Assembly (NCBI GenBank): GCA_027488815.1
Contig: JAIYAX010000012.1
Location: 595,379-659,378, forward strand
Origin: Cytophagaceae bacterium
Lineage (GTDB): Bacteria > Bacteroidota > Bacteroidia > Cytophagales > JAIYAX01
Direction of reading: 5' to 3'
Length of the DNA: 64,000 nucleotides
Shown: piece after piece, positions 1,415-64,000 of the stretch
How positions within the stretch are numbered: position 1 is the stretch's first letter
Layout of the letters: each line of letters begins with the position of its first letter
Made by a program: the position numbers and the translations under genes
Notes under the pieces: model-generated
Told to the model about the DNA's origin: nothing
What the model saw: the letters and a program-made list of their open reading frames with translations, nothing else
Databases searched by the model: none

Positions 1415-3314
1415 CCGCTTGCGATTGAAGTTTTTTAAGCTCCATTTTCAGTTTTTGATATCGTTGGTCCTGCGGATAATCCTGCTGTAGCTCATTAAGT
1501 TGTTTCAAGGCTTTATCATAAAGACCCTTTTGTAAATAGATATTGACGATGTTTTCTTTTGCAAGGACATGGTCGGGGTGGTAGCGAAGGGCTTTTCGGG
1601 TGTAATATTCAGCTTTCTCCAAATCTCCGTGAATTAAATAGTCAAAACCAAGATTTGAAAGGGCTTCACGATGTCCTGGTTTTTTCTCTAACAGGGTTTG
1701 AAGCAGGTTGCGGGCCTCACCAAAACGATTTTTCTTTTGTAAAGCCTCAGCATACAGAGATACAAAGTTTAAATCATCCGGGTCTAAAGCGTAAGCTTTT
1801 TCAAACCATGGGAAAGGATCCAGTGCATTGCGGTAATGTATATCGGCAATCTGATACAAGATGCGAGCATCGTTTATTTTTTCCTTTTTAAGCTCCTGAA
1901 GGAATGGCTGATCCGGTAGCTCCTTACTGAGGTAGAAATATCGCACCTTGGTGACCAGATCGAGTTTGTTCAACATTCGCTTGACGGTATCGAGCAGCAA
2001 AGCTGAACGAGATTGATGTTCAAAATGGCTCAAGTAGGCCTTTGCAAGCGTTTCTATGGGTGTAGACTTCCCGGTAAAGTTTCGCATTTGAGGGACAGAT
2101 GTACCATTAACTGCGGGTTTGCTTTCAGTTGATTTTTCAGGAATTCTGATAAAATGGTCAGAGGTCGAAACATGTGGGATATCAGTTGTACCGTTTTTGG
2201 GCATATGACAAGTTACGCAGGAAAGATTGGGGTTTTGGTGCACTTCATGATGGCTACAGGCTTTGGTGCTCTCATGGCAGTTGAGGCATTTTTGATTGTA
2301 AGCAGTTAATGGCGTTTGATCCAGTTTTTTATGAGGATCATGGCAGGAGACACAGGTTAACTTTTCATTTGAAGCAATGAAGCATTTGCTCTGCTGAAGC
2401 CGCTCCGCATGAGAGGCAAAACCATAGTCTTCGGTGGAGTTGTTGGTTGGTATCAGTATCGTGGTATAGAAGTCCAAAGGCTGGCCGGGTCGGAAATTCG
2501 CCAGATTCTTCCCGGGATGATCGATGTTTATTCCTTCGAGATGACATTGACGGCAAACATCAAACTGAAGAGCGATAGGAAGTTTTGATGGATTAATAAT
2601 TCCCGGATCAGTCTGCTGACCGGGGTCTTCCTTCATTTTCATCTGGTGAACAGAGCCTGGTCCATGGCATTTTTCACATCCTATTCCATCACCCAGTGAT
2701 GTAAACTTGTTGACAGTTTGCCCAACATGCTGAAAGTCGCTGTTGTGGCAACTCATGCAAAGCAAAGTGATCGGCCTGTCGAAGCGGGAATTGTTCCCAC
2801 CCTCATACCCAGGGCTCAAGTCCCATAGTTTTTTTTCTACATACCAGGTGACCGGTATTTCATAGACAAAGTTGTTTTCTTCATAGAGATAAGTTCTTGT
2901 TTTATTCCCTGAGCCAATCACATAGTCAGCTTTAAACACCAAAAGATGGGTTGTATCAACGCCCTTGACTCTATACTCAGTCACCAACAGCTCCCCCTTG
3001 AGGGTATCCATTCGGTACCAAAGTTTATTATGCTTATCGAATACTTTAGCATTTCTAAAGTCTTCCACAAACGTCGTGTTGGCAATAGCATGAAAGGCCT
3101 TCCCTTTGCCTGTTTCCAGATAGCTTTTGTAAATATCTTGATGGCAGCCACCACAAGCCTTAGCTCCTATGTATTCAGCCTTTAATTGATTTTCTGAAGA
3201 TTGCTTGTTTGTATTTTCCTTTTTTTCTTCATCACTGCATGAGACAACCATGATCACCATGGAAGCCCATCCGAGAAGTGAAGTCAACAGCAGAATTTTT
3301 ACACGGGCTTGCAA
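1401..3314 (-). CDS. Multiheme c-type cytochrome lipoprotein with C-terminal TPRs
   Basis: Seven CXXCH motifs (CGGCH, CMSCH, CEKCH, CRQCH, CVSCH, CLNCH, CVTCH), lipoprotein-like N-terminus, TPR-like repeats. Confidence 0.85.
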   Translation of the reverse strand: MQARVKILLLTSLLGWASMVIMVVSCSDEEKKENTNKQSSENQLKAEYIGAKACGGCHQDIYKSYLETGKGKAFHAIANTTFVEDFRNAKVFDKHNKLWYRMDTLKGELLVTEYRVKGVDTTHLLVFKADYVIGSGNKTRTYLYEENNFVYEIPVTWYVEKKLWDLSPGYEGGNNSRFDRPITLLCMSCHNSDFQHVGQTVNKFTSLGDGIGCEKCHGPGSVHQMKMKEDPGQQTDPGIINPSKLPIALQFDVCRQCHLEGINIDHPGKNLANFRPGQPLDFYTTILIPTNNSTEDYGFASHAERLQQSKCFIASNEKLTCVSCHDPHKKLDQTPLTAYNQKCLNCHESTKACSHHEVHQNPNLSCVTCHMPKNGTTDIPHVSTSDHFIRIPEKSTESKPAVNGTSVPQMRNFTGKSTPIETLAKAYLSHFEHQSRSALLLDTVKRMLNKLDLVTKVRYFYLSKELPDQPFLQELKKEKINDARILYQIADIHYRNALDPFPWFEKAYALDPDDLNFVSLYAEALQKKNRFGEARNLLQTLLEKKPGHREALSNLGFDYLIHGDLEKAEYYTRKALRYHPDHVLAKENIVNIYLQKGLYDKALKQLNELQQDYPQDQRYQKLKMELKKLQSQAATSG

Positions 3315-26688: not shown

Positions 26689-29600
26689 ATGAGGTTGAAA
26701 CCAACAACACTAACCACTGCGACTGTCTTTGTATTGCTATTTTCTTTGTTGCAGCCAGCTTATGCTCAACGTTTTTGGGTAGGGGGGTCTGGCAATTGGA
26801 GTGACACTACGAGATGGGCAACCAGTAGCGGTGGGGCTGGTGGTGCATCAGTACCGACAGAATCAGACAATGTGTTCTTTGATGCAAATTCAAACGGTGT
26901 CGGTACTGCGGCCTTTACTGTCACTTTGGATGTCCCTTCAGTAGTCAATCAACTGAATTTTACTGGCACTGATGGGATTGCCACTTTTGCCGGAGTAAAT
27001 TCATTAACGGTTCATAGCACAGTTACTACTGTTGCCAATTGGAACCCCACGTTTACAGGAGTTTTTGTTTTAGCAGGTAATCTGCCATTTACCACTAGCA
27101 ATATCAACTTTACAGGCCAAAACTTTGCCGGAGGAATCAGAGTTAGTGCCAATGTTGATGGGGCAGGATGGCAATGCATTTCTGGAACTTTAAGTACTGT
27201 AGGAGCAATCCAGTTGGTTCGAGGCATCTTGAATTTGAATAATAGACCTGTAACGGCACAGTCGATTTCCGCCAATGACCCTGGCAATTTCGATCGCTCA
27301 TTACTAATGGGTGCCAGCTTAGTTACTTTGAACGGTAGCGGTAACATCATTGATTTTACCGACAACTTAGGCGCATTTACGTTCGACCCGGGTACCGCTA
27401 CGGTTAACATGGCCACAACAGGTGGTATTACTGTCATCTGTGGCAACAGCAGCAAAACCATGCCCATTCTGAATGCCACTTCACCGGGAAGTTCAATGGT
27501 TATTCAACCGACAAATACAATTGGAAATACAACTACTTTCAGAGCAATTTCTTCAGTAAAAACAACACTCAACTTTACAGGAGGCGGAAATTCGCTGTTT
27601 TCAAGCACCATTACTGTACCTAATTCATCATCAGCTTCATTTGGAGGACGGAACTTGCAGTTTGATGCCAGTCTTTTAGTTACAACGGGTTCAGTTTTCT
27701 CTTTCACAAATGTTGGTACGACAATATTCAATGCAAGTTTAACAACCAATGCCACCTCCAGCCTCACCTTTACAAACAGCATGACGACGGGCACTTTTAA
27801 TGGCCCGATTACGTTTGGTGGGACCACCGTCGCTTTTAACAATTCAGGTTCCAATACATTTGCAAACACCGCACCCATCACTCAGAATGTCGGTACTGTC
27901 TCGTTTTCAAACAATGGAAACAATTACAACGGGAACATCACACTTGGCCAAAATGTAATCTGGAGATTTTCCAATGTCGGTGTGTCAAATATCGCCGCTA
28001 CAAGTGAACTCAGATCAATTGCTCTGTGTGGGACAGTGGGTACTTACCCAACAGTAAATGCAGTGACTGGCACTGCATTTATAAATATTGCCACCCCCAG
28101 AACCTGGTACAACCTTAGAATAGGTAGTTTGAATGTGACCGGCTCATTGATCGCAAGTTTTGGTAGTGTAAATCTGGGAGGCAACACCAATGTCACCTTC
28201 GGTACAGCATCTGATACCAGGGTAGTTTATTGGGTGGGGGGGAGCGGCAACTGGAATGATCAGAACCGCTGGTCTACTTTTTCAGGTGGTCCCGGAGGAG
28301 AGTGCGTTCCGGGTACTGTGGATAGCGTGGTTTTTGATGCGAATAGTTTTAGTTCGGCCGGGACGGTGAATTTGAATGCGACGGCAACTATTAGGGATAT
28401 CAACGCAGGTGCAATAACTCAAAATGTTAATATATCGGGTGCTTCACTTATGAATATCAACAGGAGTGCAATTTTTTCTGGTTTATTATCTGTGAATATC
28501 CCTTCACTAAATTTTGTTTCTGTTGCATCAGGAGTATTTAATCCAAATCTGTCAACTATTAATTCACCAACTGTAATTAATAAAACAACTGGATCTTTAA
28601 TATTGGGCTCTACACTAAATGTGACCAACTCATTCACAATAACATCTGGTTCATTTAATTCCAGTTCAAATATACTTAACGTTCAAACCTTGAGGGCCGA
28701 CGCACCTGGAGGGTCAGTTGTAGATTTCCAAAATTCAACAATAAATGTTTCAGGTGGAGTTTCTGGATTTGATTTGTCATTTGCAACAACAAATCTGACG
28801 GCAGGCTTGTTATTAAATGGGTCAAATATTGTGATCCTCGGCGTTGTTGAAACTGATTTTCGAAACGGAAACAAAACCCTTTTCGATGTCACAATTACCT
28901 CTGTTGGAAATATGTCGATAACAGCAGATAATTCTCCAACAATTTATACTTACAATAACATCGTTATTCAATCAGATGGGTTTTTTTCGGATTTATCTAC
29001 TTCAAGAAAAATCATCAACAATGTTACAACAGGTCTTAACTCAAATTTTACTTTGTTTGGAACAAATAATTTAATAAATGGGACCGTTTCTATTGGCTCA
29101 ATTACAAATGCACTTCGGAATGTTGCTTTCAATAACTCAAATACTTTTAATGGATCTGTAACTGTTGCTGGTCCAAGTAATGCTTCTGACCGGGTGCAGT
29201 TTTTTAACTCCCGCTTCAATTCCACAGTCACCCTTAATTCTAATGGTGGGCGTGCACAGTTTAGAAACAACTGCTATTTTGTAGGGGCTGTTGATATTCA
29301 AAATGACCTTACCGCCAGTGATCCGGCGGCTATTTTCTTTGGAACAGATACCTTTGAAACTAATTTTAATCTTGGCAACGGCTCTATTGCCCGATTTACT
29401 AATTTAAACACAGTTGGAACTAGCACTGTATTTCTGGGTCCGGTTACAGTTGGGAATGACATTGCAGTTGGAAATTGTGACTCTCAGAGAGACATTGAAT
29501 TCTATAGCCCGGTAACAGTTGGAAACAACACAACCTTCCAGTTTTGCAATTCTGCCGGCAGATCTACTTTTTTCTCAAACCTTACCATAGGCACTAATTC

Positions 29601-32600
29601 TCAGGTGAGGTTGCGTCGATTTGTTTATGTGTTTGGTCGCTACTTTCAAGGAAATGCGGGTAATGCAATATTCTCAGAATTAAGTGATACAGCTTATTTC
29701 AGGGGAAGAGTAGAATTTTTAGGCAACAAAACCTTTGTTTATTTTCAACGACAAGTCAGATTTGACAGTGCTCTTGTTTTTGGAGATAATAATCCTGATG
29801 TTAGGTTTAATGAAACTGCAAATGCACCAAATATCAGCTATTTTTACGGGCCTGTTATCATTGGTAATGGTGGTCAGTACATATTCCGCCGTGGTAGCCA
29901 AATGTTTGATAACTTCACAGCTGGCAACAATTTAACATTACGTTTCACTGAGACAGACCCGGGAACAGGTTTTGGAGGTAGGTCAACAGTTATTAGGGGT
30001 AATGTAGTGATTGGAACAGGTGGTTCAGCGTATTTTCGACATTTGAGTAGATTCTTAGGCAGGTTCACCAAAGGTTCAGGAGGTGACATCAGATTTTGCA
30101 CCAACAACGACTCTACTTATTTCGCAGGGCAGGTAAGTTTTGCAGGAGGTACATCCCAGATTCAATTCAATCGAACGGTATTTTTTGATAGCTCACTTAC
30201 CATTGGGAATACCAATGGAAGTATTATTATAAATGATCAATCAACCAACACACCTGGGTCACTTTTCTCAAGATTTAGGGGTAATGTGACCATAGGATCA
30301 GGAAGCAACATCATCAGCAACCGGCGGGTACAATTTTCAGGTACTCTTATTATTGGGGACAACTCAGTATTTAGTACCAATTCCATTGATGGGGGATCAG
30401 CTATCACAAACACCTCTACTTTCCTTGATACAGTTAGGTTAGGAAATACTTGCACAGCCAACTTTTCCCGAATTAGTCAATTTGCCTCCAATTTGATCTT
30501 CGGGGATAATTGTACTGTAAATCTAAATGCGAGTGGAGGGGCAGTTGAGTTTAATAGTGCCCCAACTACTGCCCTCTGGCGATTAGGTGTAAACTGCGTG
30601 GTTACCTTTAACCCAGGCTCTGCAAATACAATACGCAACTTTAATTTGGGGCCCTTTACCCGTGTGATCTTTAACAACAACGGTATAAACAACACCTTCC
30701 GCACGATCAATTTCACTAGATTCGTTACGGTTTTCTTTAATTCCCTTGGTGGAGTAAATTCAATTACCAATGGAATAACAGGAAATAACACCTGTGGGTC
30801 ATGGAACTACATCAGGACCAATGTGCCTAATCAACAAACTGTTATTAATTTAGGTACTGCAAGTACTGTTGATGAGTTTGTAGCCCAAGACATTAATAGT
30901 ACAGGCTCTTTATTGACCATCAACTCAGGGGTCAATTTGGTCAATAATACAGGAGCCATCACCTTTACTTCCGCACGTACTCCAAGAACTTATTTTTGGG
31001 TAAGAGGCACAAACAATACCCAGCTTTGGAGTGACTCAACCAACTGGTCTCTCACCAGTGGTGTCACCACCAGCCCAACTGCAGGACTTTGTATCCCCTC
31101 ACCTGTGGACAGCGTGGTGTTTGATAACAATTCATTTAATGGAACTAGAAGAACTGTAGTGATCGATTTGCTCAATGTATTCAGCAAAGGCATGAATTGG
31201 ACCAATGGAATCACAAATGCACCTGAATTGCAAGGAATTGCTCAAAACACTCTAAACATCAATGGTGAGCTTACCATGCCAGGCGGTTTGATGACCAATA
31301 CTTTTGCTGGCTTAACGCAATTTGGCTCAGCAGAAGTAGGCACAAAACGTATTAATACAAATGGAGTTACCTTCAATGGTCCGATATTATTTAACAGTCA
31401 ATTTGGTAACTGGCTGATGACCAGTAATTTCTTCGTTGGGAATGGATTTAATGGGAACATCACCTTAAGAAGGGGGAATGTGAATGCCAACACCACAGGT
31501 GTTCGTATCGCATTGCAAGGTTCTTGGACTGTAGAACCAGCAAATGCCCCAGCGCCAGCCCCTTCCTTTACAGCAGGTATAAGTACTGTAGAGTTTTTTG
31601 GAGCAACCTCAGGAGTCGATATCATTACAAGAGGGAATGATTTCTATAATTTGACGGTCAACAAGACCAATGTAGGAGAGATCGTCGAAATAAGAAACAA
31701 TGCTATTGTAGTTAGAAATGACCTTCGATTGGTGAGAGGACAGCTTACTGATGCGGGCAATGGATTTGATGAAGGTGCTTTCCAGATATCAGGTAATACT
31801 ACAGGCACAGGCCTTCTTCTGGTCACAAATAATGCAACTTTACATATAGGGCGTTCAGGTGCTTGGGCAGGGGGAACCGATGATGGAACAGTTGGCAATG
31901 CAGGTTCCCCAGGCGTTGGAGCTACTAACAATACCACCTTTCCAACCGGATGGAATACCGCTCAATGTAGCCTTGAAGTAAATAGTCGGGTAATCTACCG
32001 AAGACATGGTTTCCAGCCTGTGTCAGGTGTTCCTAATTATGGAATATTAGAGTGCCTTAACCCTAATCCTTGTGGTGCAACTTGCCCAAGAATGAGGTAT
32101 GCAACCGGACCTTTGACCATTTTTGGGCAGCTGATCCTACTAAACGGTATCTATTTGGCTGACAGTGGCTTCCAGATAACATTCTCCGCTTCAACAGCCC
32201 TTACTATGGAGGCTTTTTCTGAGTTACAATTGGGTAGGGCTGCTTCACGCACTATTTTCCCATTGAACTTTGTAACTGCTAATATGAATCTTGACGCCAC
32301 CAGCACCGTGGTGTACAACAGCGGTGTTCCCGGAGGTCCAAACATTCAGGATGTGGCATCATTAGCAGGAGCTGGAAACAACAGCTACGGAAACGTTATC
32401 ATCCGCAAATCGCTTGCTTATCGTGGATTTGCAGTTGGAGCCACACCTACTGTTTTTGCAGAAACAACAGGAAGTTATGCGGATAAACGACTTATAGGGA
32501 ATATCATCGTAAGAGGTAATCTGACCATTGAGAATCGAAATTCTTTTGATGTAACTACCGGTAACTTTTTAATTGACTTAAGAGGCAATTGGGTAGGGCA

Positions 32601-33906
32601 AACGGATTCCCGATTCGAGTCCAGAGGAGGAACTGTTCTCATGTCAGGTGGAAACGCTCAAACCATAGCTGCAGGAACCAGCCAACATGATTTCAACATC
32701 ATTCAAGTTAATAAGACTGGGAATAATGTTACCTTAAATACTCCGGTAATTTCACGTACCCGGGTTGATTTTACCAATAGGTACATCGTAGCAACATCGG
32801 TTAACCATTTGTTTTTCCAGGATAATGCCACAGTAGGTACCGGAGGAAATGCACCAAGAAATGCTTCTCACGTCATTGGTTGGGCAAGAAAACAAGGAGA
32901 TGATGCCTTTACTTTCCCAGTGGGTAATGGTCAGTTTTACAGGGCAATTGGTATTTCAGCCCCTCCGAGTGCGACAACCGTGTTTGCAGCAAATTATGTT
33001 CGTGCATTCCCCCAAGGCTCTGTAGGTGCCCCACTAGATGCATCTTTAAGAAACATTAGCGTTTTAGAATATTGGAACCTTGACCGAATCGTAAATGCTG
33101 GTGGAGGCAACTCTGCCGCACAGGTTACGCTCTCTTGGGTTGATATTGTGTCTGGGGGTGTTGGTACTTTTGACTCAGTAGTCGTAACTCGCTGGAACGG
33201 TACTTTTTGGGCCAATAGTGGACCTGCTCCTGGGGGTCCCAATCGAACGGGAAATAATCTTAATGGCACGGTAACTACCTCTGCTGCCCTGGATGTGTTT
33301 AGCCCTTTCACTTTAGGCTCGGTAGCAAGATTTATATTTAATCCCCTTCCGGTCAATCTGATCAGCTTTAATGTAACCCAAAGTGCCTCAACAGCAATTA
33401 GCGTCTGGAAAGTAGCCGAGGAGCAGGAAGTAAGAGAATACCAGATTGAGCGCAGTATCGATGGAAAAAGTTTTAGCCCTATAACTAGTATAGCAAGCCT
33501 TAAGTCATCTTCAGCAGAATATAGGTTTGTCGATCAATCTCCTGCTTCGGGTTGGAATTACTACCGATTAAGAACCATTGAAGACAATGGAGATGTAAGG
33601 CTATCCTCTGTAGTTTCCTTGTATTTTGAAACAGGTAAAGGCTTTAACCTTTCATTATTCCCTAACCCAGTTACTGGTGGAAACCTTACGATTAAGTCCT
33701 TTGAAGGGAAAGCGAACATCAGGCTTAACTCAATTGTAGATCCTATGGGTCGTAGGATTGACCTTGGTAAATCAGAGACGGGGCTCTTTGAGACAGAACT
33801 TCAAATACAGTTAAGCCCTTCTCTGGCTTCTGGAATCTACTACGCATTGGTTGAAGTTGAAGGTGGAAACGGAGAGCTTGAGCGTATCAAATTCATTGTT
33901 CAGTAA
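26689..33906 (+). CDS. Giant secreted repeat/beta-helix-like protein, T9SS cargo
   Basis: Signal peptide; three W(V)xGxxNW modules; C-terminal type-A-like sorting domain FNLSLFPNPVTGGNLTIKS...ASGIYYALVEVEGG. Confidence 0.9.
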   Translation: MRLKPTTLTTATVFVLLFSLLQPAYAQRFWVGGSGNWSDTTRWATSSGGAGGASVPTESDNVFFDANSNGVGTAAFTVTLDVPSVVNQLNFTGTDGIATFAGVNSLTVHSTVTTVANWNPTFTGVFVLAGNLPFTTSNINFTGQNFAGGIRVSANVDGAGWQCISGTLSTVGAIQLVRGILNLNNRPVTAQSISANDPGNFDRSLLMGASLVTLNGSGNIIDFTDNLGAFTFDPGTATVNMATTGGITVICGNSSKTMPILNATSPGSSMVIQPTNTIGNTTTFRAISSVKTTLNFTGGGNSLFSSTITVPNSSSASFGGRNLQFDASLLVTTGSVFSFTNVGTTIFNASLTTNATSSLTFTNSMTTGTFNGPITFGGTTVAFNNSGSNTFANTAPITQNVGTVSFSNNGNNYNGNITLGQNVIWRFSNVGVSNIAATSELRSIALCGTVGTYPTVNAVTGTAFINIATPRTWYNLRIGSLNVTGSLIASFGSVNLGGNTNVTFGTASDTRVVYWVGGSGNWNDQNRWSTFSGGPGGECVPGTVDSVVFDANSFSSAGTVNLNATATIRDINAGAITQNVNISGASLMNINRSAIFSGLLSVNIPSLNFVSVASGVFNPNLSTINSPTVINKTTGSLILGSTLNVTNSFTITSGSFNSSSNILNVQTLRADAPGGSVVDFQNSTINVSGGVSGFDLSFATTNLTAGLLLNGSNIVILGVVETDFRNGNKTLFDVTITSVGNMSITADNSPTIYTYNNIVIQSDGFFSDLSTSRKIINNVTTGLNSNFTLFGTNNLINGTVSIGSITNALRNVAFNNSNTFNGSVTVAGPSNASDRVQFFNSRFNSTVTLNSNGGRAQFRNNCYFVGAVDIQNDLTASDPAAIFFGTDTFETNFNLGNGSIARFTNLNTVGTSTVFLGPVTVGNDIAVGNCDSQRDIEFYSPVTVGNNTTFQFCNSAGRSTFFSNLTIGTNSQVRLRRFVYVFGRYFQGNAGNAIFSELSDTAYFRGRVEFLGNKTFVYFQRQVRFDSALVFGDNNPDVRFNETANAPNISYFYGPVIIGNGGQYIFRRGSQMFDNFTAGNNLTLRFTETDPGTGFGGRSTVIRGNVVIGTGGSAYFRHLSRFLGRFTKGSGGDIRFCTNNDSTYFAGQVSFAGGTSQIQFNRTVFFDSSLTIGNTNGSIIINDQSTNTPGSLFSRFRGNVTIGSGSNIISNRRVQFSGTLIIGDNSVFSTNSIDGGSAITNTSTFLDTVRLGNTCTANFSRISQFASNLIFGDNCTVNLNASGGAVEFNSAPTTALWRLGVNCVVTFNPGSANTIRNFNLGPFTRVIFNNNGINNTFRTINFTRFVTVFFNSLGGVNSITNGITGNNTCGSWNYIRTNVPNQQTVINLGTASTVDEFVAQDINSTGSLLTINSGVNLVNNTGAITFTSARTPRTYFWVRGTNNTQLWSDSTNWSLTSGVTTSPTAGLCIPSPVDSVVFDNNSFNGTRRTVVIDLLNVFSKGMNWTNGITNAPELQGIAQNTLNINGELTMPGGLMTNTFAGLTQFGSAEVGTKRINTNGVTFNGPILFNSQFGNWLMTSNFFVGNGFNGNITLRRGNVNANTTGVRIALQGSWTVEPANAPAPAPSFTAGISTVEFFGATSGVDIITRGNDFYNLTVNKTNVGEIVEIRNNAIVVRNDLRLVRGQLTDAGNGFDEGAFQISGNTTGTGLLLVTNNATLHIGRSGAWAGGTDDGTVGNAGSPGVGATNNTTFPTGWNTAQCSLEVNSRVIYRRHGFQPVSGVPNYGILECLNPNPCGATCPRMRYATGPLTIFGQLILLNGIYLADSGFQITFSASTALTMEAFSELQLGRAASRTIFPLNFVTANMNLDATSTVVYNSGVPGGPNIQDVASLAGAGNNSYGNVIIRKSLAYRGFAVGATPTVFAETTGSYADKRLIGNIIVRGNLTIENRNSFDVTTGNFLIDLRGNWVGQTDSRFESRGGTVLMSGGNAQTIAAGTSQHDFNIIQVNKTGNNVTLNTPVISRTRVDFTNRYIVATSVNHLFFQDNATVGTGGNAPRNASHVIGWARKQGDDAFTFPVGNGQFYRAIGISAPPSATTVFAANYVRAFPQGSVGAPLDASLRNISVLEYWNLDRIVNAGGGNSAAQVTLSWVDIVSGGVGTFDSVVVTRWNGTFWANSGPAPGGPNRTGNNLNGTVTTSAALDVFSPFTLGSVARFIFNPLPVNLISFNVTQSASTAISVWKVAEEQEVREYQIERSIDGKSFSPITSIASLKSSSAEYRFVDQSPASGWNYYRLRTIEDNGDVRLSSVVSLYFETGKGFNLSLFPNPVTGGNLTIKSFEGKANIRLNSIVDPMGRRIDLGKSETGLFETELQIQLSPSLASGIYYALVEVEGGNGELERIKFIVQ

Positions 33907-44047: not shown

Positions 44048-44070
44048 TCTAAAGTACATCTTTAAAATCG

Positions 44071-44103
44071 ATTGGTCGGGGTGAAATATTTACTCCGGCC
44101 AAT
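44071..44103 (+). terminator. 12-bp hairpin, terminator-like without strong U tract
   Basis: ATTGGTCGGGGT - loop - ACTCCGGCCAAT with G-U pairs. Confidence 0.4.
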
Positions 44104-44167
44104 TCGTTTGTGTCATATAGTACCGAATCAAATCAACTTTTTTCTTAATTTAGCAGAACATTTGTCT

Positions 44168-45268
44168 ATGAAAAAGGTAATTTGTCTTCTCTTCTTCGCC
44201 TTGTGGCTGTTTTCATGCAATAGGCCCGATGAACAGATTCCTAATCAGTCTCAGGAGGAATACATCCCTAAACCCTACGTTTTAGAGTATCCTTCCTATT
44301 TTCCTGCACCCTTTGATACCTTGGCAGTTAAGCAAATGACGGTTGAAGGAGTACAATTGGGCAGGATGCTGTTTTACGATGTCCGGCTGTCAAAGAACAA
44401 CACCATCTCTTGTGCAAGTTGCCATCGTATGGACAAAGCCTTCAGCGATCCTGCACCTAAATCATTGGGGATCAATGGACAACAAGGCCTTCGAAACAGT
44501 ATGACACTCACCAACATGGCCTGGGTAGATCGTTTCTTTTGGGATGGCAGAGCTGATAATCTTGAAAACCAGGTGCTTATCCCAATTCAGGATCCGATTG
44601 AGATGCACTCTCAACTGCCTGATTTGGTTCAAAAACTAAATGGAATACCGGAGTATGGTCCCATGTTTAAAAAAGCTTTCGGCACTTCAGGAATAGACAC
44701 AAGCCGGATTGCCAAGGCCTTGAGTCAGTTTTTAAGATCAATGGTTTCATCAAACTCCCGCTACGATAAATACCTGAGAGGAGAAATCAACCTAAGTCCA
44801 CAGGAATTGCTGGGACGTAATTTGTTTTATACCCACCCTGTTTTTACCACCAATCTGAGAGGGGGCAATTGCGGAGATTGTCATTCAGGTGTTTTACAAA
44901 CAGATCATACCTTTAAAAATAATGGACTTGACCTTGTTTACCAGGACAATGGACTATACAATGTGACCGGAAATCCAGCTCATATTGCAAAATTTAGAGT
45001 CCCTAGTTTGAGAAATATTGCCCTTACAGCTCCTTACATGCATGATGGCAGGTTCAATACCTTGCAGGAAGTCTTGTTGCATTACAATGAGCATGTACAG
45101 CGACATCCCAACGTTGACCCAATAATGTCAGGTACAAACAATCCAGACCCTAATTCACTGGAGTTGTTGCTTACCTCAAGTGAGCGAGCCGCCATCATTG
45201 CTTTTTTACATACTTTGACTGATAGTACCTTTATCAGCAACCCCGCATTTTCCAATCCCAATCCATAA
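44168..45268 (+). CDS. Diheme cytochrome c peroxidase (MauG/MbnH-like) lipoprotein
   Basis: CASCH and CGDCH, lipobox-like LWLFSC; start at internal ATG. Confidence 0.88.
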   Translation: MKKVICLLFFALWLFSCNRPDEQIPNQSQEEYIPKPYVLEYPSYFPAPFDTLAVKQMTVEGVQLGRMLFYDVRLSKNNTISCASCHRMDKAFSDPAPKSLGINGQQGLRNSMTLTNMAWVDRFFWDGRADNLENQVLIPIQDPIEMHSQLPDLVQKLNGIPEYGPMFKKAFGTSGIDTSRIAKALSQFLRSMVSSNSRYDKYLRGEINLSPQELLGRNLFYTHPVFTTNLRGGNCGDCHSGVLQTDHTFKNNGLDLVYQDNGLYNVTGNPAHIAKFRVPSLRNIALTAPYMHDGRFNTLQEVLLHYNEHVQRHPNVDPIMSGTNNPDPNSLELLLTSSERAAIIAFLHTLTDSTFISNPAFSNPNP

Positions 45269-45278
45269 CACTCTGTCT

Positions 45279-46037
45279 ATGAACTTCTATCGATCTATTT
45301 TACCCGGCTTTATCGCCTTTACCCTGCTTGGCTGTGGCCAGGAGGATGAGCAGCAAGCTACTATTGAAAGCGCAGGAACCGTGTCTCTCCAGTTTAAGCA
45401 CATGGTTGGAAACACCCCATTTACCAATGAAAGCAATATGGTGACCTCCCAAGGAGACACCTTGCTCATCAATGATTTGGCCTATTACATCAGCAATGTC
45501 GCATTTGTTCAGCCCAATGGCTCAGAATATAAAGTGCCAAATAGCTATCATCTCATTCGTCAAACGGATAAGTTTGGACAGAACACCCGATTGGTAGTTG
45601 ACCTGCAAGGTGTCCCACAGGGAACCTATTCCAAGCTCAGATTTAGTGTTGGAGTAGACTCTTCACGCAATTTCAATATAGCAAAAGTTGGAGATCTTGA
45701 TCCAAACGGGTTGATGACCTGGCCATGGAGCATTGGATACAAGTATTTTGTGATTGAAGGCAGGCAAATTGATGCCAGTGATACAGCTGTAAAAAGTCTA
45801 GTGTTTCATATCGGCCGCTTGCCAAACTATAAAGTGCTTGAGCATTCGTTGAACTATCAGGTAGGGGCAGGCAGCAAAACCCGTCTGAATGTGACCATGG
45901 ATCTGAACAAGGTGTTTTATAACCCAACCGTTATCAATCTGAAAACCACCAGTAATGTGATGGAGGCTCCTAAAGATCAGATTGTTGCCAATAACTATGC
46001 TACTGCCTTTACGGTAAGTTTGGCACAGAACCCTTAA
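45279..46037 (+). CDS. MbnP-like lipoprotein
   Basis: LLGC lipobox; TLLINDLAYYISNVAF and GLMTWPWSIGYKYFVIEG pattern; between two diheme peroxidases. Confidence 0.75.
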   Translation: MNFYRSILPGFIAFTLLGCGQEDEQQATIESAGTVSLQFKHMVGNTPFTNESNMVTSQGDTLLINDLAYYISNVAFVQPNGSEYKVPNSYHLIRQTDKFGQNTRLVVDLQGVPQGTYSKLRFSVGVDSSRNFNIAKVGDLDPNGLMTWPWSIGYKYFVIEGRQIDASDTAVKSLVFHIGRLPNYKVLEHSLNYQVGAGSKTRLNVTMDLNKVFYNPTVINLKTTSNVMEAPKDQIVANNYATAFTVSLAQNP

Positions 46038-46047
46038 GGTCATTAGA

Positions 46048-47055
46048 ATGAAACTGCAGGCTGGGATTGCCTTTGCAGGCCTATGCTTGGCATTCATGTC
46101 TTGCGGAACAGATCCCCTAAGTCGGGTCCCCGGGCATTTTCCCAAATCCGAAATGGATGGAGAGGAAAATCTTTGGTCAGAGCAAGGAGCAAAACTAGGG
46201 GAAAGACTTTTCAATGAGCCTTTACTGTCCAAAAGCAATACAGTTTCATGTGCCACATGCCATCAGCCTGCTCATTCCTTTGCAGACCCGGGAAAAGTGT
46301 TAAGCAGCTTGCCAGGGCAGGAAGCACCTCTGCGACATACGCCAGCCTTGATCAATCTGGCATGGCAGACAGCTTTTTTCTGGGATGGTGGAGCTCTAAA
46401 TCTTGAGTCTGTTTCTCTTTCGCCACTCATTGGCCATCGTGAAATGGCACAAGACCTTAAAGAAATGGTTCAGGAACTGGGCCAAAAGGAGAATTATAAA
46501 AAACAGTTTAAGCAGGTATTTGGCTCAGATAGTATTGTAACGGCCTATGTCCTTAAAGCACTTGCGCAATACATGAGAACCATTCAACAAACCCAAACAC
46601 CTTACGATGCCTACAAGGAAGGAAAAATCCAGATCAGTGAAACTCGGAAGAAAGGGGAGCAGATTTTTAATCAATATTGTGCAGGCTGTCATGTTCCTCC
46701 GCTTTTCACTGATTTTAAGTACCACAATACTGGATTTGATACTCTTTTGGAAGGAGGAGAGTTTAATTTTCGATCAGGAAGGATGAGAATTAGCGGAGAG
46801 GAAAGTGATCGTGGAAAATACAAGACCCCAAGTTTAAGAAACTGGAGGTACACCTACCCTTACGGGCATAACGGGCAGTTTGCCGGATTGGAGCCTTTGC
46901 TTAAGCATTACACCCAAGATTTGGCCAGCCATAACATGGCCCCCGATCCTTTGCTCTACACAGAAGGTAAGCCGGGGTTGCTAATGAATGAAGGGGATTT
47001 AGCAGCTCTCACTGAATTTTTAGATTTGTTAAACGAACGTGAAAATGAAGAATAG
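46048..47055 (+). CDS. Second diheme cytochrome c peroxidase (MauG/MbnH-like) lipoprotein
   Basis: CATCH and CAGCH, LGERLFNEPLLSKSNTVSCATCH, PSLRNWRYTYPYGHNGQF. Confidence 0.88.
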   Translation: MKLQAGIAFAGLCLAFMSCGTDPLSRVPGHFPKSEMDGEENLWSEQGAKLGERLFNEPLLSKSNTVSCATCHQPAHSFADPGKVLSSLPGQEAPLRHTPALINLAWQTAFFWDGGALNLESVSLSPLIGHREMAQDLKEMVQELGQKENYKKQFKQVFGSDSIVTAYVLKALAQYMRTIQQTQTPYDAYKEGKIQISETRKKGEQIFNQYCAGCHVPPLFTDFKYHNTGFDTLLEGGEFNFRSGRMRISGEESDRGKYKTPSLRNWRYTYPYGHNGQFAGLEPLLKHYTQDLASHNMAPDPLLYTEGKPGLLMNEGDLAALTEFLDLLNERENEE

Positions 47056-47491
47056 AACTCTAGGGTATTGTATGTTGGTGCTATTAGTGATCAACTTTTC
47101 TGGTTGTAAGGAAGAGGATCCAGCGAACCCAAGCTCGCCACCAGTAGATAAGAGACTGAAAATCAGTAGAAGCCAAATCAACAGCCGCAGAAGTGTCACT
47201 CGGTTTGAAGTGAACGGAGTAAACAAAGCAGTTAGCTATCAGGGTAAAGCATTTGATTTTGTGTCTACCGGCAAAATCGAAGTGTTGGACAGCTCATTGG
47301 TCTTGAACAGGACCGGTAACTTCACCATTTCCTCGGATAGCCTTGTTTTCACCATTACTTTTTCCGGCACTCCCGATGTATATTCAGAGTTGAATGGAAG
47401 CTACAACCTCTATCTGAACAATGGCACAACATGGGATTTTACAGCTACAACAGCCCCTTTCAGGAGATTAGTCTTAACCTTTAGAAAGTAG
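47045..47491 (+). CDS. Small lipoprotein of unknown function
   Basis: MKNRTLGYCMLVLLVINFSGCKEED; overlaps the end of the peroxidase gene. Confidence 0.65.
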   Translation: MKNRTLGYCMLVLLVINFSGCKEEDPANPSSPPVDKRLKISRSQINSRRSVTRFEVNGVNKAVSYQGKAFDFVSTGKIEVLDSSLVLNRTGNFTISSDSLVFTITFSGTPDVYSELNGSYNLYLNNGTTWDFTATTAPFRRLVLTFRK

Positions 47492-47902
47492 TTACCTGCA
47501 CTGGGCGATTGCAGGCTTTGCACGATCGATAGAGACCATTCCGGTCTTTTTACCCCAGCTATTGTCTGTATACGTCAATAATGCTGCAAGTTCCAAAGGG
47601 CTTATTTTAGCCATTGCGGGCATTCGAACAAGGGCTTTACTTTCAGGATCAGAGCCATTCAAAATCATGCAGGTGCTTCGTTTGATGTTTTTTGAAAGGT
47701 AAATTCCACGAAGTGAGGGATAAATGCCTTTCAATCCACTGCCATCTTTTTGGTGACAGTTGGCACACGATGTTTCATACACCTGTTTCCCATGCAGCAT
47801 GTATTTGGTGAACTTGATTTCAAGTTCCCTTTCCTCATTGCTGCAACCTGAATTAAGAGCCAACATGAAAAATGTGCAAACAATCACAAGCCTAGTTCTC
47901 AT
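47492..47902 (-). CDS. Monoheme cytochrome c lipoprotein
   Basis: VYETSCANCHQKDGSGLKGIYPSLRG, lipobox-like NSGC. Confidence 0.85.
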   Translation of the reverse strand: MRTRLVIVCTFFMLALNSGCSNEERELEIKFTKYMLHGKQVYETSCANCHQKDGSGLKGIYPSLRGIYLSKNIKRSTCMILNGSDPESKALVRMPAMAKISPLELAALLTYTDNSWGKKTGMVSIDRAKPAIAQCR

Positions 47903-48563
47903 TTTTTAGCAATTCAATTGCTTTCATGAGTTCGTTGACTGATTTTTCCTGGGTGCCATCGTAATAGCCTCTGATCCGTCGCTGTCCATCAATCAAAATG
48001 AATGCACCGCTATGAACCCTTCCATCAGGTTCTTTTTCATCTTCATAAGCTGTCACCATGTAATGCTTTTGGCCAAGGGCATAGATGCTGTCTTTGCTGC
48101 CGGTGAGCATATGCCAGGAAGGGGTTGATACCTCTAGCTGCGCAGCATAAGCCCTCAGCAAGGCCACGCTATCATGCTCAGGATCGATGCTGAAAGAAAC
48201 CAAACGTACCTTTGGATCAGCGTTGAATTTTTCATAAACCCTCAGCATCTGGGTTTTCATGATCGGGCAAATCGTGCGACAACTGGTAAAGAAAAAGTCA
48301 GTTACCACAATTTTCCCTGAAAAATCAGCCATTTGTACCCATTGGCTATCCTGATTAAGGTACGACCAGTCTGGAATTCGATGATAGATCGTGTCTGTAA
48401 TCTTTTGACCATTCAACTCCCGCACTTCCCAGGTTCGGGGGCCTAGAATAGGCAGTTTTTCTTCTTCCGGAAACAGTCGACTGCATGCTGTGAGCAGCAG
48501 TCCAAATGCAAGGCTATTGAGCAGAATATTTCGCAAGTGCTTCCTCTGCTTTTGTGATTCCAT
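47892..48563 (-). CDS. SCO1/SenC family lipoprotein
   Basis: FFTSCRTICPIMKTQM, FSIDPEHDSVALLRAYA; lipobox LTAC. Confidence 0.9.
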   Translation of the reverse strand: MESQKQRKHLRNILLNSLAFGLLLTACSRLFPEEEKLPILGPRTWEVRELNGQKITDTIYHRIPDWSYLNQDSQWVQMADFSGKIVVTDFFFTSCRTICPIMKTQMLRVYEKFNADPKVRLVSFSIDPEHDSVALLRAYAAQLEVSTPSWHMLTGSKDSIYALGQKHYMVTAYEDEKEPDGRVHSGAFILIDGQRRIRGYYDGTQEKSVNELMKAIELLKNEN

Positions 48564-48963
48564 CAATCATTTTTTGTTTCATTTCCTTTACCGAGCGCAG
48601 TTCTGTATTCAGATAGCCCACCAGACTGTCGAGTTGAGTGAAGTCTTCCACATGGTAATTTCTCATCCAAACCATCATAGCTTCGTCGGCTTGATTAAGT
48701 CCCATCAAAGCCTCATTGAGTATTTGGGCACGCATGGCACTATCAGCACTGTTAAGACCAGAGTCTGCCTTGGCGATGGTTTCTCTAAGTTGGGATTTTA
48801 GTTTCATCAGATCGTCCATACGGGGCATCATCTCGTCGTGGACGGCCATCACCTCTTGCTTCATTTTGGCAATTTCGAGCACTCTTGAATCATTACATGC
48901 CCAGAAAATGGATAAAGCAAACAAGAGGGTAGCAGGTATCAGGTATTTTTTATGAAGGGTCAT
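48514..48963 (-). CDS. Coiled-coil lipoprotein of unknown function
   Basis: MTLHKKYLIPATLLFALSIFWACND then helical sequence; overlaps the SCO start. Confidence 0.65.
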   Translation of the reverse strand: MTLHKKYLIPATLLFALSIFWACNDSRVLEIAKMKQEVMAVHDEMMPRMDDLMKLKSQLRETIAKADSGLNSADSAMRAQILNEALMGLNQADEAMMVWMRNYHVEDFTQLDSLVGYLNTELRSVKEMKQKMIDGITKAEEALAKYSAQ

Positions 48964-58910: not shown

Positions 58911-60056
58911 TCACTCTTCTTCTGAGTTTTTCAGCTTAGCCAATAGATAATAGGCTCCCTTTACCACAATCCGTTCTGATTGTAATTCCTGAGGCAAATG
59001 GCTTACTTGGCGAAATCCATCTGCAACAGGGTCGGCCTTTACAGCAATGGCCTCGTATCTGGATTGATCTTTCTCTTCGGCAGGTCTTTCCACAAAGAGG
59101 TACGTAATGCCTTTGTACTCGGTAAATGCTTCTTCCGGCAGGCAAGGAACTGAGTCTGCACCGGTCTCGATCTCTGCTTCTACAAACTGACCAGGTAGCC
59201 AGGCCGGGTTTTCTTTTTTAAGATGCCCATGCACCCTTATGGTACGACTCTCCGAAATCTTCCTGCCAATCAGGAAAATTTCGGCTTCATGTAGCTCAGG
59301 AGCATTTCCCAACTTAAAATGAATTTTTTGACCCGCTTTCAGTCGGTTAAGGTGTTGTTCAAACACAAAAAGCTCTACATGCAAATGGTCAGTGTCGACC
59401 AGTTCAAAAACGATATCCGTTGGCGACACAAATTGCCCAAGGCTGCTGAATATCTCAGCCACGTATCCATCGATAGGAGACCTCAGCTCGTATCGGCCAC
59501 TGATTTGTTCCGGTTTCAGGTTTTCAGGATCATTCATCAGGGCTTTTAATCGGGCTTGAAGGGCTCTTCTTTTGATGCGTGCCTGTTGTAAACCGGCCAT
59601 CGCCTGCTGCCTTGTTTTTTCAGCATTTACCTGATCCAGGGCCAGAGTTTCCTGACGATTTGACTCCAGTTGGGCCAGCTCCTCCTGATTTTTAGCCTCC
59701 AGAAATTCCTGCTGCAGCTTGATGTACTCCGGATTTTCGAATTCCGCCAGCAGCTCTCCCTTTTTTACCCTGCTGCCCTGCAACACCTTGATCGATTTGA
59801 CAAAACCACCCAGTGGTACGGAAAGGCTCACCATTTGCTGAGGGGGAACATCCAGTTTGCCATTGACCTTAATCTTCTGCTTCAAAAGCCGATAGCTGAA
59901 CATGGACGTCTGAAGCGAGATACCTGCTTTTTGTGTCTCATTCAGGCTGATCATAGCCTTGCTTTCAAGTTCGACTTTTGTCTCTTTTGCTTCTTTGCTG
60001 CAAGCTGTGAACAAAAGACCCGTAAGGAGGATCCAGACCTTGGGTATAGATTTCAT
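58911..60056 (-). CDS. RND periplasmic adaptor lipoprotein (CzcB/CusB-like)
   Basis: Lipobox FTACS; VKSIKVLQGSRVKKGELLAEFENPEYIKLQQEF. Confidence 0.9.
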   Translation of the reverse strand: MKSIPKVWILLTGLLFTACSKEAKETKVELESKAMISLNETQKAGISLQTSMFSYRLLKQKIKVNGKLDVPPQQMVSLSVPLGGFVKSIKVLQGSRVKKGELLAEFENPEYIKLQQEFLEAKNQEELAQLESNRQETLALDQVNAEKTRQQAMAGLQQARIKRRALQARLKALMNDPENLKPEQISGRYELRSPIDGYVAEIFSSLGQFVSPTDIVFELVDTDHLHVELFVFEQHLNRLKAGQKIHFKLGNAPELHEAEIFLIGRKISESRTIRVHGHLKKENPAWLPGQFVEAEIETGADSVPCLPEEAFTEYKGITYLFVERPAEEKDQSRYEAIAVKADPVADGFRQVSHLPQELQSERIVVKGAYYLLAKLKNSEEE

Positions 60057-61306
60057 GGTTCGTTGGTTATGTTCATTCCACTTAAGAATTCCAATTTGAT
60101 GAGGGACTGATGATAGTACCAGATGCTGAGCAGGTATTGTTCCTCAGTTTGAATGGCTTGCCGGAAGGCCATGCTCGCACCCAGAAAGTCAAGCTCTCCC
60201 TTTCGATAGGATAACTCAGCCTTGCTCCTGATTTGGAGTGCAAGCGGCAGTGCACTTTTTTCATAGAATTCAAGCAGTTTTTGCTGTTTTAAAAACTCGG
60301 TTTTCGCTACAGCCCAGTCCGCTTGCCATTGGCGTTTTGCCTGTAGACGGTCCATTTCTTTACCTTGCTTTTGCAGTTTTGCCATTTGTAGCTTCACGGT
60401 AGTAGGCCTAAACCATAGCGGGATAGACACTCCTGCTTGCCATCCCTGAAATCTTTGGCCCCTGCTAGCCAGTTCTCCGTTCCCGATAGGGGCACCGATT
60501 AGGGTCTGGTTGAAATAGCCAATTTGCAGGTCAGGCAGAAATTTGCTGCGCTCCACTTTGATTTCTTCCTGAGCCATTGCCACTTGCAACATGCCTTTTT
60601 TGAGATGCGGGTTCTCCAACGCCAGCATGCTTGCTGTATCCACTTTCAAAGCAAGGCGGTTCCATGAGCTATCTGCAACTGCAAGTTGCTCTTCAAAACC
60701 CAATAAGGCACCCAAATGCCATTGCAGCATCTGCTGATCTTGCCGGGCTCTCTCTATCTGCTGTTTCAGATCCATTTGCTGAAGGGCAGCCTGTTGTTGT
60801 TCAAGCTGAGTACCTTCTCCCGCCCTGTAGCGTATATCCGCTGCCCTGCTCAGGCTGTCAAAAAGACCCGAGAGCTTCTTGAGCAAATCCAGCCTCTCCC
60901 GCTGGACCATCTGCTCCTGAAGGTTGAGCTTGACTGATGTGATCACCTCCAAACGGATCAACTGTTCCTCATTGGCACTGTTGCGACGTATTTGCTCATA
61001 CCATTTTGAGATAGAGACAAAGGCCGTTGGGAAGGTCATTCCTTGACTTATGCTAATGTTTTGGTCTTCACGTGCGCCGCTATTGTATTGTCCCTGCATC
61101 ACTGTAACCTGGGTTTTGTTTAATTCAAAGGCTGTTTTACGTCGTAGACCACTTCTCTCCGTCTCCAGTCGGGCGGAGATCAGTCTGGCATTTTGTGTTT
61201 CTGCCAGTTGCAAAGCCTCATCATAGCGGACAGACCTCTGCGCTGTGGCCAGGGTTGCGGCCAACAAAAAGACTATGAGCAAGAGATGACGAAAATTAAG
61301 ATCCAT
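60053..61306 (-). CDS. TolC family outer membrane protein (CzcC-like)
   Basis: Signal peptide, TolC-like repeats, operon context. Confidence 0.86.
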   Translation of the reverse strand: MDLNFRHLLLIVFLLAATLATAQRSVRYDEALQLAETQNARLISARLETERSGLRRKTAFELNKTQVTVMQGQYNSGAREDQNISISQGMTFPTAFVSISKWYEQIRRNSANEEQLIRLEVITSVKLNLQEQMVQRERLDLLKKLSGLFDSLSRAADIRYRAGEGTQLEQQQAALQQMDLKQQIERARQDQQMLQWHLGALLGFEEQLAVADSSWNRLALKVDTASMLALENPHLKKGMLQVAMAQEEIKVERSKFLPDLQIGYFNQTLIGAPIGNGELASRGQRFQGWQAGVSIPLWFRPTTVKLQMAKLQKQGKEMDRLQAKRQWQADWAVAKTEFLKQQKLLEFYEKSALPLALQIRSKAELSYRKGELDFLGASMAFRQAIQTEEQYLLSIWYYHQSLIKLEFLSGMNITNEP

Positions 61307-64000
61307 GGCTTTCTTTGGTTTTTTTAGGTTGGATCATAGCATAAAGACAAGGCAATACGATAAGGGTAAGAAAGGTAGAGCTAAGCAACCCACCGATGAC
61401 CACCGTAGCCAATGGTCGCTGCACCTCTGCTCCGGCGCTGACTGCCAGGGCCATTGGCAAAAAACCCAAAGAAGCTACAGCTGCTGTCATCAGCACCGGC
61501 CTCAATCGATTTTTGGTGCCCTCCAGAAGCAGGGGAATCAGTTCTTTCAAGGGATCCTCTTTTTTAATCCGGTTAAATTCAGCCACCAGCACAATGCCAT
61601 TCAACACTGCCACTCCAAACAAGGCGATGAAACCTACCCCGGCAGAAATACTAAAAGGCATACCCCTGAGAAGAAGTGCTGCCACTCCGCCTATGCTTGC
61701 CAGGGGTATGGCAGTAAAGATGAGTAAGGCCTGCCTGAAGGACTGAAACGTAAAGTAGAGCATGATAAAAATGAGACTTAAGGCAATAGGCACAGCCACC
61801 ATCAAACGCTCCTTGGCCTTTTTTAAATTCTCAAATTGCCCACCGTAGGTGATGTAATAACCCGCAGGTAGTACCAACTTTTTATTTAAGATGCTTTTGA
61901 TCTCTTCCACTACCGACTCCACATCTCGCCCACGGGTGTTAAAGCCAACAATAGCTCTGCGCTTGGCATCCTCCCTTTGTATCTGTGTGGGTCCGGGGAT
62001 CAAGGAAACCTCTGCCACCTCCGAAAGCGGGATAAGATTGCCGCTTGAGCTTCGAAGGGGTAAACGGTTCAGGTCTTCAAGGCTTTGACGGTAACGGGCA
62101 TCCAGCCTCAAGACCAGTTCATACCGCTTTTCACCCTCGTACACCAGCCCGGCCACCTGACCTGCAAAAGCGGAATGAATGGCCTGATTTACTTCCGTCA
62201 CATTCAAGCCATATCTCGCCATCTTATTTCTTTCAAGCTTCGCTACGATCTGGCTCATCCCGGTAACCTCTTCAACGTACATGTCTTTTACTCCTTCAAC
62301 GCTGGCTACAAGATCAGCCACCTGAGGGGCTAAACTGCTCAGGGTGTCCAGGTCCTCTCCAAAAATCTTTAGGGCAACGTCTTGCTTTACCCCGGTCATG
62401 AGCTCATTGAAACGCATTTGTATGGGTTGAAGGAATCCAAAATTGACACCCGGTATCACTTCCAGCGACTCGCTCATTTTTTCAGCCAGTTCTTCCCTGC
62501 TTTCCGCCTTCTTCCATCGCTCAGGAGGATGCAGCAGGACCATCAGGTCGCAGGCTTCCATTGGCATGGGGTCAGTCGGTATTTCAGCCGCACCGATTTT
62601 ACCAACTACTTCCCGAACCTCATCCGGATATTCTTTGAGCAAAATGGACGAAGCACGGAGGGTGACATCTACGGTATGTTGCAGGCTGCTGCCGGGCAAA
62701 AGCCTTGTTTCCACAGCAAAATCACCCTCTTCCAAGGTTGGGATAAACTCACCTCCCATTCGCAGGAAGGCAATCAGGCTCAGTGTGAAAGCCACAAGGC
62801 TGAGGGCCAGCACCCAGAATTTTTTTCTCAGTGCCAGCTCCAGAGAGGGGCGGTAAAGCTTTTGCAGCCAGGCCATCATTCGGTCAGAAAAATTTTCCTG
62901 ATGCCCCGGCTTTCGGCTCAGCCACAGGGCGCACATCATGGGCACATAGGTGATCGAAAGGAGGAAAGCGCCCAGAATGGCAAAACCCACCGTCTGCGCC
63001 ATCGGTCGGAACATTTTGCCCTCGACCCCTACCAGGGCCAGCAATGGCAGGTAAACGATCAGGATGATGATCTCCCCGAACGCTGCTGAATTCCGTATGC
63101 CTGAGGCAGATTTGTAGACTTCCTGATTCATGCTTTCACGGCTTAGCATTCCTCCTGCCTTGCGTAAGCCCAGGTGATGGAGGGTAGCCTCGACCACGAT
63201 CACGGCCCCGTCCACCACCAATCCAAAATCAATGGCACCTAGGCTCATGAGGTTGCCCGATACACCAAACAATTGCATCAGTGAAACGGCAAAGAGCAAG
63301 GCCAGCGGGATGACCGAAGCCACGATCAACCCGGCTCTCAGGTTGCCCAGAAAAAGCACCAGCACAAAAATGACGATCAGCGCTCCTTCCAGCAGGTTGG
63401 TCTGCACGGTAGAGATAGCCCTGCCCACCAGTTCGCTTCGGTCCAGAAAAGGCTCGATGGTAACTCCTTCAGGCAGGGAGGTTTTGATTTGCTCGATCCT
63501 TTTTTTGACCTGCTCTACGACAGCATCTGAGTTTTCACCCTTGAGCATCAGCACCAATGCACCTACTACCTCACCCTGATCGTTGTAGGTCATGGCCCCG
63601 TAGCGGTTAGCCTGCCCAAAGCGCACTTCAGCCACCTGCCCCACGAGCAAAGGAACGCCTTCAGGACTTAACCGTAAAACAACGTTTCGGATATCGTCCA
63701 AATCTTTCACCAGACCTTCGGAGCGGATGAAATAGGCACGGGGGTTTTTGTCGATATAGGCACCTCCTGTATTTTGGTTGTTGGCTTCCAACGCCGAGTA
63801 GACATCTGAAAGGCTGAGGTTAAAGCTGCGAAGCCTGTTTGGATCTATGGTCACCTCATATTGTTTTACAAAGCCTCCGAATGAGCTCACATCTGCAACC
63901 CCCGGGGTGCCCAGCAATTGCCTTCGAACGATCCAGTCCTGAATACTGCGCAGGGCGACGGCATCGTACTGATCTTCATAGCCGGGTTTGGCTCTTAGGA
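61296..64000 (-). CDS. Heavy-metal efflux RND pump (CzcA-like), 5' end beyond window
   Basis: SLGAIDFGLVVDGAVIVVEA, MFRPMAQTVGFAILGA; frame stays open from 63917 to the window edge (LRAKPGYEDQYDAVALRSIQDWIVRRQ). Confidence 0.93.
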   Translation of the reverse strand, partial: LRAKPGYEDQYDAVALRSIQDWIVRRQLLGTPGVADVSSFGGFVKQYEVTIDPNRLRSFNLSLSDVYSALEANNQNTGGAYIDKNPRAYFIRSEGLVKDLDDIRNVVLRLSPEGVPLLVGQVAEVRFGQANRYGAMTYNDQGEVVGALVLMLKGENSDAVVEQVKKRIEQIKTSLPEGVTIEPFLDRSELVGRAISTVQTNLLEGALIVIFVLVLFLGNLRAGLIVASVIPLALLFAVSLMQLFGVSGNLMSLGAIDFGLVVDGAVIVVEATLHHLGLRKAGGMLSRESMNQEVYKSASGIRNSAAFGEIIILIVYLPLLALVGVEGKMFRPMAQTVGFAILGAFLLSITYVPMMCALWLSRKPGHQENFSDRMMAWLQKLYRPSLELALRKKFWVLALSLVAFTLSLIAFLRMGGEFIPTLEEGDFAVETRLLPGSSLQHTVDVTLRASSILLKEYPDEVREVVGKIGAAEIPTDPMPMEACDLMVLLHPPERWKKAESREELAEKMSESLEVIPGVNFGFLQPIQMRFNELMTGVKQDVALKIFGEDLDTLSSLAPQVADLVASVEGVKDMYVEEVTGMSQIVAKLERNKMARYGLNVTEVNQAIHSAFAGQVAGLVYEGEKRYELVLRLDARYRQSLEDLNRLPLRSSSGNLIPLSEVAEVSLIPGPTQIQREDAKRRAIVGFNTRGRDVESVVEEIKSILNKKLVLPAGYYITYGGQFENLKKAKERLMVAVPIALSLIFIMLYFTFQSFRQALLIFTAIPLASIGGVAALLLRGMPFSISAGVGFIALFGVAVLNGIVLVAEFNRIKKEDPLKELIPLLLEGTKNRLRPVLMTAAVASLGFLPMALAVSAGAEVQRPLATVVIGGLLSSTFLTLIVLPCLYAMIQPKKTKESHGS

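Follow-up and report, generated by a model that had tools for sequence, protein, structure and literature searches.

Diheme enzymes of the MbnH type oxidise a tryptophan of the partner protein MbnP to kynurenine and so create a copper site, in which a histidine, a methionine and solvent are found near a kynurenine. Such kynurenine-assisted copper sites are known from a few methanotroph proteins; SCO proteins are another family that handles copper. MbnP and MbnH are known as a conserved pair (PMC3621798), and in CorA/MopE a kynurenine lies beside Cu(I) and a diheme protein is the partner (PMC3912023). A stretch of 64,000 nucleotides from contig JAIYAX010000012.1 of a Cytophagaceae bacterium (the window) was analysed here. 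It contains a gene for an MbnP-family lipoprotein located between two genes for different diheme lipoproteins, designated H1 and H2. The MbnP is probably an envelope-anchored copper protein matured by oxidation of a tryptophan to kynurenine, as judged from the analogous systems. The genes at 44168–47491 are likely to form the single operon that supplies this protein and its maturation.

Sequence and predicted structure of the MbnP-family protein

The product of 45279–46037 had been described as MbnP-like in a first-pass annotation made from the sequence alone, and a search with family profiles bore this out. The protein matched the Pfam family PF20243 (MbnP) at 1e-42, with 146 bits compared to a gathering score of 27. 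The WxW motif of the family and the conserved downstream histidine (HxG) correspond to Trp148, Trp150 and His177, which were kept in 70, 66 and 66 of 71 relatives, respectively. Methionines at positions 146 and 228 give two candidate ligands, and the position of Met228 is a histidine in several relatives, an exchange that might fit a metal ligand.

A model of the protein was calculated with AlphaFold (AF2) from an alignment with 24 relatives and had a mean pLDDT of 88. Comparison of this model with the PDB using Foldseek gave six chains of 7L6G, the MbnP of Methylosinus trichosporium, with an E-value of about 1e-8, a probability of 1.00 and a TM-score of 0.55–0.63 by query length; nothing else in the PDB was matched at E <= 0.001. 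A profile search of the PDB also retrieved 7L6G, and a phmmer search of the PDB with the single sequence returned chance matches only. Judged by its Pfam match, WxW motif and predicted fold, 45279–46037 encodes a true MbnP-type protein. It is the sole MbnP of its genome. A search of a collection of genome contigs with the single MbnP sequence gave no match, and one with an alignment of H1 was successful.

The lipid-bearing cysteine of MbnP is followed by acidic residues (CGQEDEQ). At least two acidic residues within positions +2 to +7 after this cysteine were found in 37 of 52 MbnPs and 17 of 44 enzymes (p 0.002). The signals reported for lipoprotein export in Bacteroidetes are K-(D/E)2 and SDDDD (PMC5080379), which the acidic stretch of the window MbnP resembles, and the protein is perhaps surface-exposed. 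A surface location of MbnP would parallel that of CorA, a surface-located copper protein (PMC3912023).

The two diheme enzymes

The diheme proteins on either side of MbnP are 33% identical to each other. H1 matched the CCP_MauG domain at 6e-61 and its best PDB match was MbnH (6E1C, 2e-52), while H2 matched CCP_MauG at 5e-44 and its C-terminal part aligned best with MauG. Tyr306 of H1 and Tyr288 of H2, as counted along the printed alignments, align on Tyr294 of MauG. This axial tyrosine was invariant in all 66 relatives, as were the distal-pocket glutamate and both CxxCH hemes, and this held across the three clades into which the enzyme trees divide. The equivalents of Glu113, Pro107 and Trp93, which like Tyr294 have functional roles in MauG, are retained in both proteins. 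The equivalent of Gln103 is glutamine in clade II, mostly leucine or valine in clade III and valine in H2.

In CcpA peroxidases the axial ligand of the high-potential heme is methionine, not tyrosine. By this mark neither H1 nor H2 is of the CcpA type, and both are MbnH/MauG-like in sequence rather than ordinary CcpA peroxidases. It is thus very improbable that H1 and H2 act as ordinary cytochrome c peroxidases in the removal of H2O2, beside a passive MbnP. Both carry the CCP_MauG domain and the top full-length PDB matches of H2 are bacterial cytochrome c peroxidases, but the invariant MauG-type tyrosine, the closest matches of H1 to MbnH and of the C-terminal part of H2 to MauG, and the recurring linkage to MbnP all argue the other way.

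In clade I the enzyme gene usually follows that of MbnP, while in clade II, which contains H1, the enzyme gene precedes MbnP when the two are paired. H2 belongs to clade III and its branch of 2.3–2.6 is among the longest of the enzymes, indicating fast evolution. The possibility that H2 is a pseudo-enzyme was considered and finds no support in its residues, the heme, glutamate and tyrosine positions being intact. The description of two non-identical MbnH-like enzymes flanking one MbnP, as put forward in the first-pass annotation, is supported. Elsewhere in the same genome a CCP_MauG gene is broken over several frames and is probably a pseudogene (G000:C24:80790-81238).

Recurrence of the cluster in related genomes

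The family PF20243 was present in 44 of the 59 relatives of the order that were sampled for this count and for co-occurrence (G and L numbers denote genomes and loci); nearly all of its members had WxW and many adjoined MauG-type partners. The named relatives belong to the Cytophagales genera Echinicola, Algoriphagus and Hymenobacter. The arrangement of enzyme, MbnP and enzyme is not one of a kind: another 11 genomes have it, and many of their clusters include a further MbnP. A clade-II enzyme, a single MbnP and a clade-III enzyme occur in G015, G064, G067, G071, G103 and Echinicola pacifica. Clusters with both clades and two MbnPs around a small cysteine protein (X) occur in G008, G042, G043, G179 and G192; X also precedes the single MbnP of G064, and G026 has a variant gene order. 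The literature search, made in a limited set of papers, found none naming MbnH together with Bacteroidota, no biochemical study of MbnH/MbnP, and nothing contradicting the earlier statement that the layout is undescribed, so that novelty in print was only partly checkable.

The common cassette of the order, as seen with profiles built for this analysis, is X, MbnP, MbnH and B. X has about 125 residues with three invariant cysteines (LCxNKxxPxxxCxGxCxLxK ... PP), adjoins MbnP at L072, L032, L044, L054, L070 and many other loci, and had no match in Pfam or NCBIfam. B is an unnamed family resembling outer-membrane barrels, with an N-terminal CxxC, that follows MbnH (L072:9837-10931, L070:9062-10141, L151:9963-10886). 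Neither profile gave a match in the genome of the window, which is weak evidence of absence as there was no positive control within that genome.

In G008 and G043 the order mdh-H1-MbnP-X-MbnP-H2 (L032, L044) lies directly downstream of mdh, as does the cluster of the window. Because the site is the same, the best reading of the genes in the window is that they represent a reduced form of the cluster in G008 and G043, apparently without the second MbnP, X and the outer-membrane barrel. It is possible, though below an even chance, that H2 is a leftover of an ancestral H1-MbnP1-X-MbnP2-H2 cluster from which MbnP2, X and the barrel were lost, so that H1 alone serves MbnP and H2 is decaying or recruited elsewhere. 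The two post-mdh clusters, the failure of the X and barrel profiles to find a match in the genome and the long branch of H2 are in keeping with this, and its nearest relatives by identity include enzymes without an adjacent MbnP (L190, 46%; L191, 44%). The retention in H2 of every heme, glutamate and tyrosine position speaks against it, and the single-MbnP layout of the six other genomes suggests a stable state.

A different arrangement, in which MbnP is followed by two tandem MbnH-like enzymes, was found in Flavobacteriales, other Bacteroidota bins and one Phycisphaerales bin (L081, L082, L084, L088, L092, L096, L114, L116, L120, L128, L135). One MbnP with two enzymes therefore exists in more than one form. 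Two unusual loci were also seen: three tandem MbnPs beside one clade-III enzyme in G017 (L063:8731-11435), two of which keep WxW without the conserved histidine and methionine, and a clade-III-like enzyme within a 665-residue open reading frame that precedes the genes for a clade-II enzyme and MbnP, a possible fusion (L042:10026-12023).

Proposed maturation of the copper site

By analogy with MbnH/MbnP and CorA/CorB, H1, and possibly also H2, would use a high-valent diheme state to oxidise Trp148, the first tryptophan of WxW, to kynurenine. The kynurenine would then allow a Cu(I) site to form with His177 and a methionine, and the matured MbnP, on the outer membrane and perhaps at the cell surface, would bind or buffer copper. 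H2 may share the single MbnP with H1, act on another protein or be on its way out; its clade adjoins a second MbnP in several relatives, which the genome of the window does not have.

Co-occurrence in the 59-genome sample speaks for this proposal: clade-II enzymes were confined to MbnP-bearing genomes (29/29), and they were present in 22 of the 23 genomes with non-canonical MbnPs compared to 7 of 36 others. These counts ignore shared ancestry, and the sets behind them were drawn up manually with the help of trees and scores. Other results count against the proposal. In NCBIfam, MbnP scored 50.9 bits with TIGR04052 (cut-off 140), while H1 and H2 reached 263 and 153 bits with TIGR04039 (MbnH; cut-off 363), so that all three fall below the curated thresholds; these models were nonetheless the top or sole NCBIfam matches of the three proteins, TIGR04039 being the top match for both enzymes. 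Of 40 further regions with a clade-II enzyme, 28 had none of the other cluster genes beside it, some of these contigs being short, and no general conserved neighbour was found for the solo enzymes. The pairing of the clade-II enzyme with MbnP is thus not strict.

A more elaborate scheme, in which two dedicated and non-interchangeable MbnH-type enzymes mature the one MbnP, for example with one enzyme for each tryptophan of WxW or by two successive oxidations, is doubtful. If true, the tryptophan oxidation that prepares this copper site would be a pathway of two enzymes, general to the Bacteroidota clusters of clade II, MbnP and clade III.

Organisation of the locus and the convergent SCO operon

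All seven open reading frames of the first-pass annotation were present at the positions and on the strands given in Table 1, and its gene identities were confirmed by Pfam for the two CCP_MauG proteins, MbnP, SCO1/SenC and the cytochrome c.

Table 1. Positions of the genes and of the upstream hairpin in the window.
Feature	Position	Strand	Properties
Hairpin between mdh and H1	44051–44110	+	RNA fold -25 kcal/mol, z -6.0 compared to shuffles
H1, MbnH/MauG-type diheme lipoprotein, clade II	44168–45268	+	366 residues from ATG 44168; lipobox LFSC, Cys17
MbnP-family lipoprotein	45279–46037	+	252 residues; lipobox LLGC; W148-P-W150, M146, H177, M228
H2, second MbnH/MauG-type diheme lipoprotein, clade III	46048–47055	+	335 residues; lipobox FMSC
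LP4, small orphan lipoprotein	47045–47491	+	148 residues; FSGC-KEEDP; start overlaps 3' end of H2
Monoheme cytochrome c (cytC), third gene of CC-SCO-cytC operon	47492–47902	-	Cytochrom_C / CBB3 1e-7
SCO1/SenC lipoprotein (SCO)	47892–48566	-	PF02630 9e-24; CxxxC (SCRTICP)
CC, coiled-coil lipoprotein, first gene of CC-SCO-cytC operon	48514–48963	-	Motifs VHDEVMP, AMMxWMRxY

The four forward genes are tightly packed, either overlapping or separated by 10 bases, and the 10-base gap on each side of mbnP makes it adjoin both H1 and H2. The hairpin upstream of H1 is probably the terminator of mdh, which suggests that a new operon starts at H1. The three reverse genes overlap at their ends and meet the forward run tail to tail with no gap (47491/47492).

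A strict lipobox pattern matched six of the seven genes; the seventh, for the cytochrome c, has NSGC instead. The lipoprotein character described earlier is thus supported. Among the other 46 open reading frames of at least 100 residues in the window only two matched, giving p = 8e-6 for at least six of seven from a total of 8 in 53; the clustering of lipoproteins at this locus is not due to chance. LP4 and CC had no Pfam or NCBIfam family above cut-off. For LP4 there was also no PHROG match and no convincing relative in 195 genomes of the order, and a structure model from its single sequence was unusable (pLDDT 36).

The SCO protein matched PF02630 with 84 bits compared to a cut-off of 22.8. 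Its orthologues in relatives are 45–55% identical and none lies beside MbnP. According to a profile built for CC, whose conserved motifs are HDEVMP and AMMxWM, 11 genomes of the order have CC with SCO and cytC downstream of it, in none of them near MbnP; in two genomes CC was also found near MbnP. CC, SCO and cytC thus form a separately conserved operon, probably for copper handling or oxidase assembly, in which the unnamed CC family is a candidate metal binder.

The seven genes are two transcription units and not one island. The neighbourhood noted in the first-pass annotation is conserved in the enzyme-MbnP-enzyme part but not as a unit of seven, and its copper theme is supported. Of the results that the annotation named as refuting its interpretation, none was observed where a test was possible. 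That all seven genes nevertheless make up one system, with SCO and the cytochrome c supplying the MbnP unit with copper and electrons, is unlikely. The genes abut convergently and all encode lipoproteins, and CC or SCO lay no more than about 2 kb away from MbnP at 4 of 153 other MbnP loci (L049, L127, L213, L265) compared to fewer than 0.5 expected, a rough estimate of our own from gene numbers and genome size. This makes a common copper role plausible with the units still separate, but the CC-SCO-cytC trio is intact in the 11 relatives where MbnP is not nearby, and the best SCO orthologues are distant from MbnP or located on different contigs.

Three further features of the window were recorded. 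A heavy-metal efflux system of the CusA/CzcA RND type lies about 10 kb from the seven genes (58911–63998, reverse strand), with a CzcB/CusB-like adaptor and a permease (TIGR00914, 993 bits) that runs off the window. A 637-residue open reading frame (1401–3314, reverse strand) has an N-terminus resembling a lipobox, TPR regions and regions similar to multiheme cytochromes, and one of 2405 residues (26689–33906, forward strand) had no Pfam match.

Comparison with known systems

That enzymes of two clades repeatedly surround MbnP raises the question of the role of the second MbnH. For copper handling in the Bacteroidota envelope, the unnamed families of X, of the barrel-like protein and of CC are candidates. 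One of the closest described systems, from methanobactin-type loci, is the pair MbnH/MbnP (GenProp0940; TIGR04039/TIGR04052; 6E1C, 7L6G; Methylosinus trichosporium), with which the window shares the MbnP family and fold, WxW and an adjacent MauG-type diheme partner. It differs in having two different enzymes around one MbnP, in all of these being lipoproteins and in scores below the curated cut-offs. CorA/CorB of Methylomicrobium album and MopE/SACCP of Methylococcus capsulatus also combine a copper protein, theirs with kynurenine at Cu(I), with a diheme partner, but MbnP is not markedly similar to them in sequence (PMC3621798) and they have one enzyme per copper protein. MauG, which matures tryptophan tryptophylquinone, has equivalents of Tyr294, Glu113, Pro107 and Trp93 in both window enzymes, while its substrate and product are different and the Gln103 position is valine in H2. 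The convergent operon has SCO and a cytochrome c in common with SCO1/SenC copper chaperone operons, and adds the unnamed coiled-coil lipoprotein, which contains methionine and histidine. Compared with the X-MbnP-MbnH-barrel cassette found in many genomes of the order, the window contains the same protein families without X and the barrel, and its enzymes belong to clades II and III instead of clade I.

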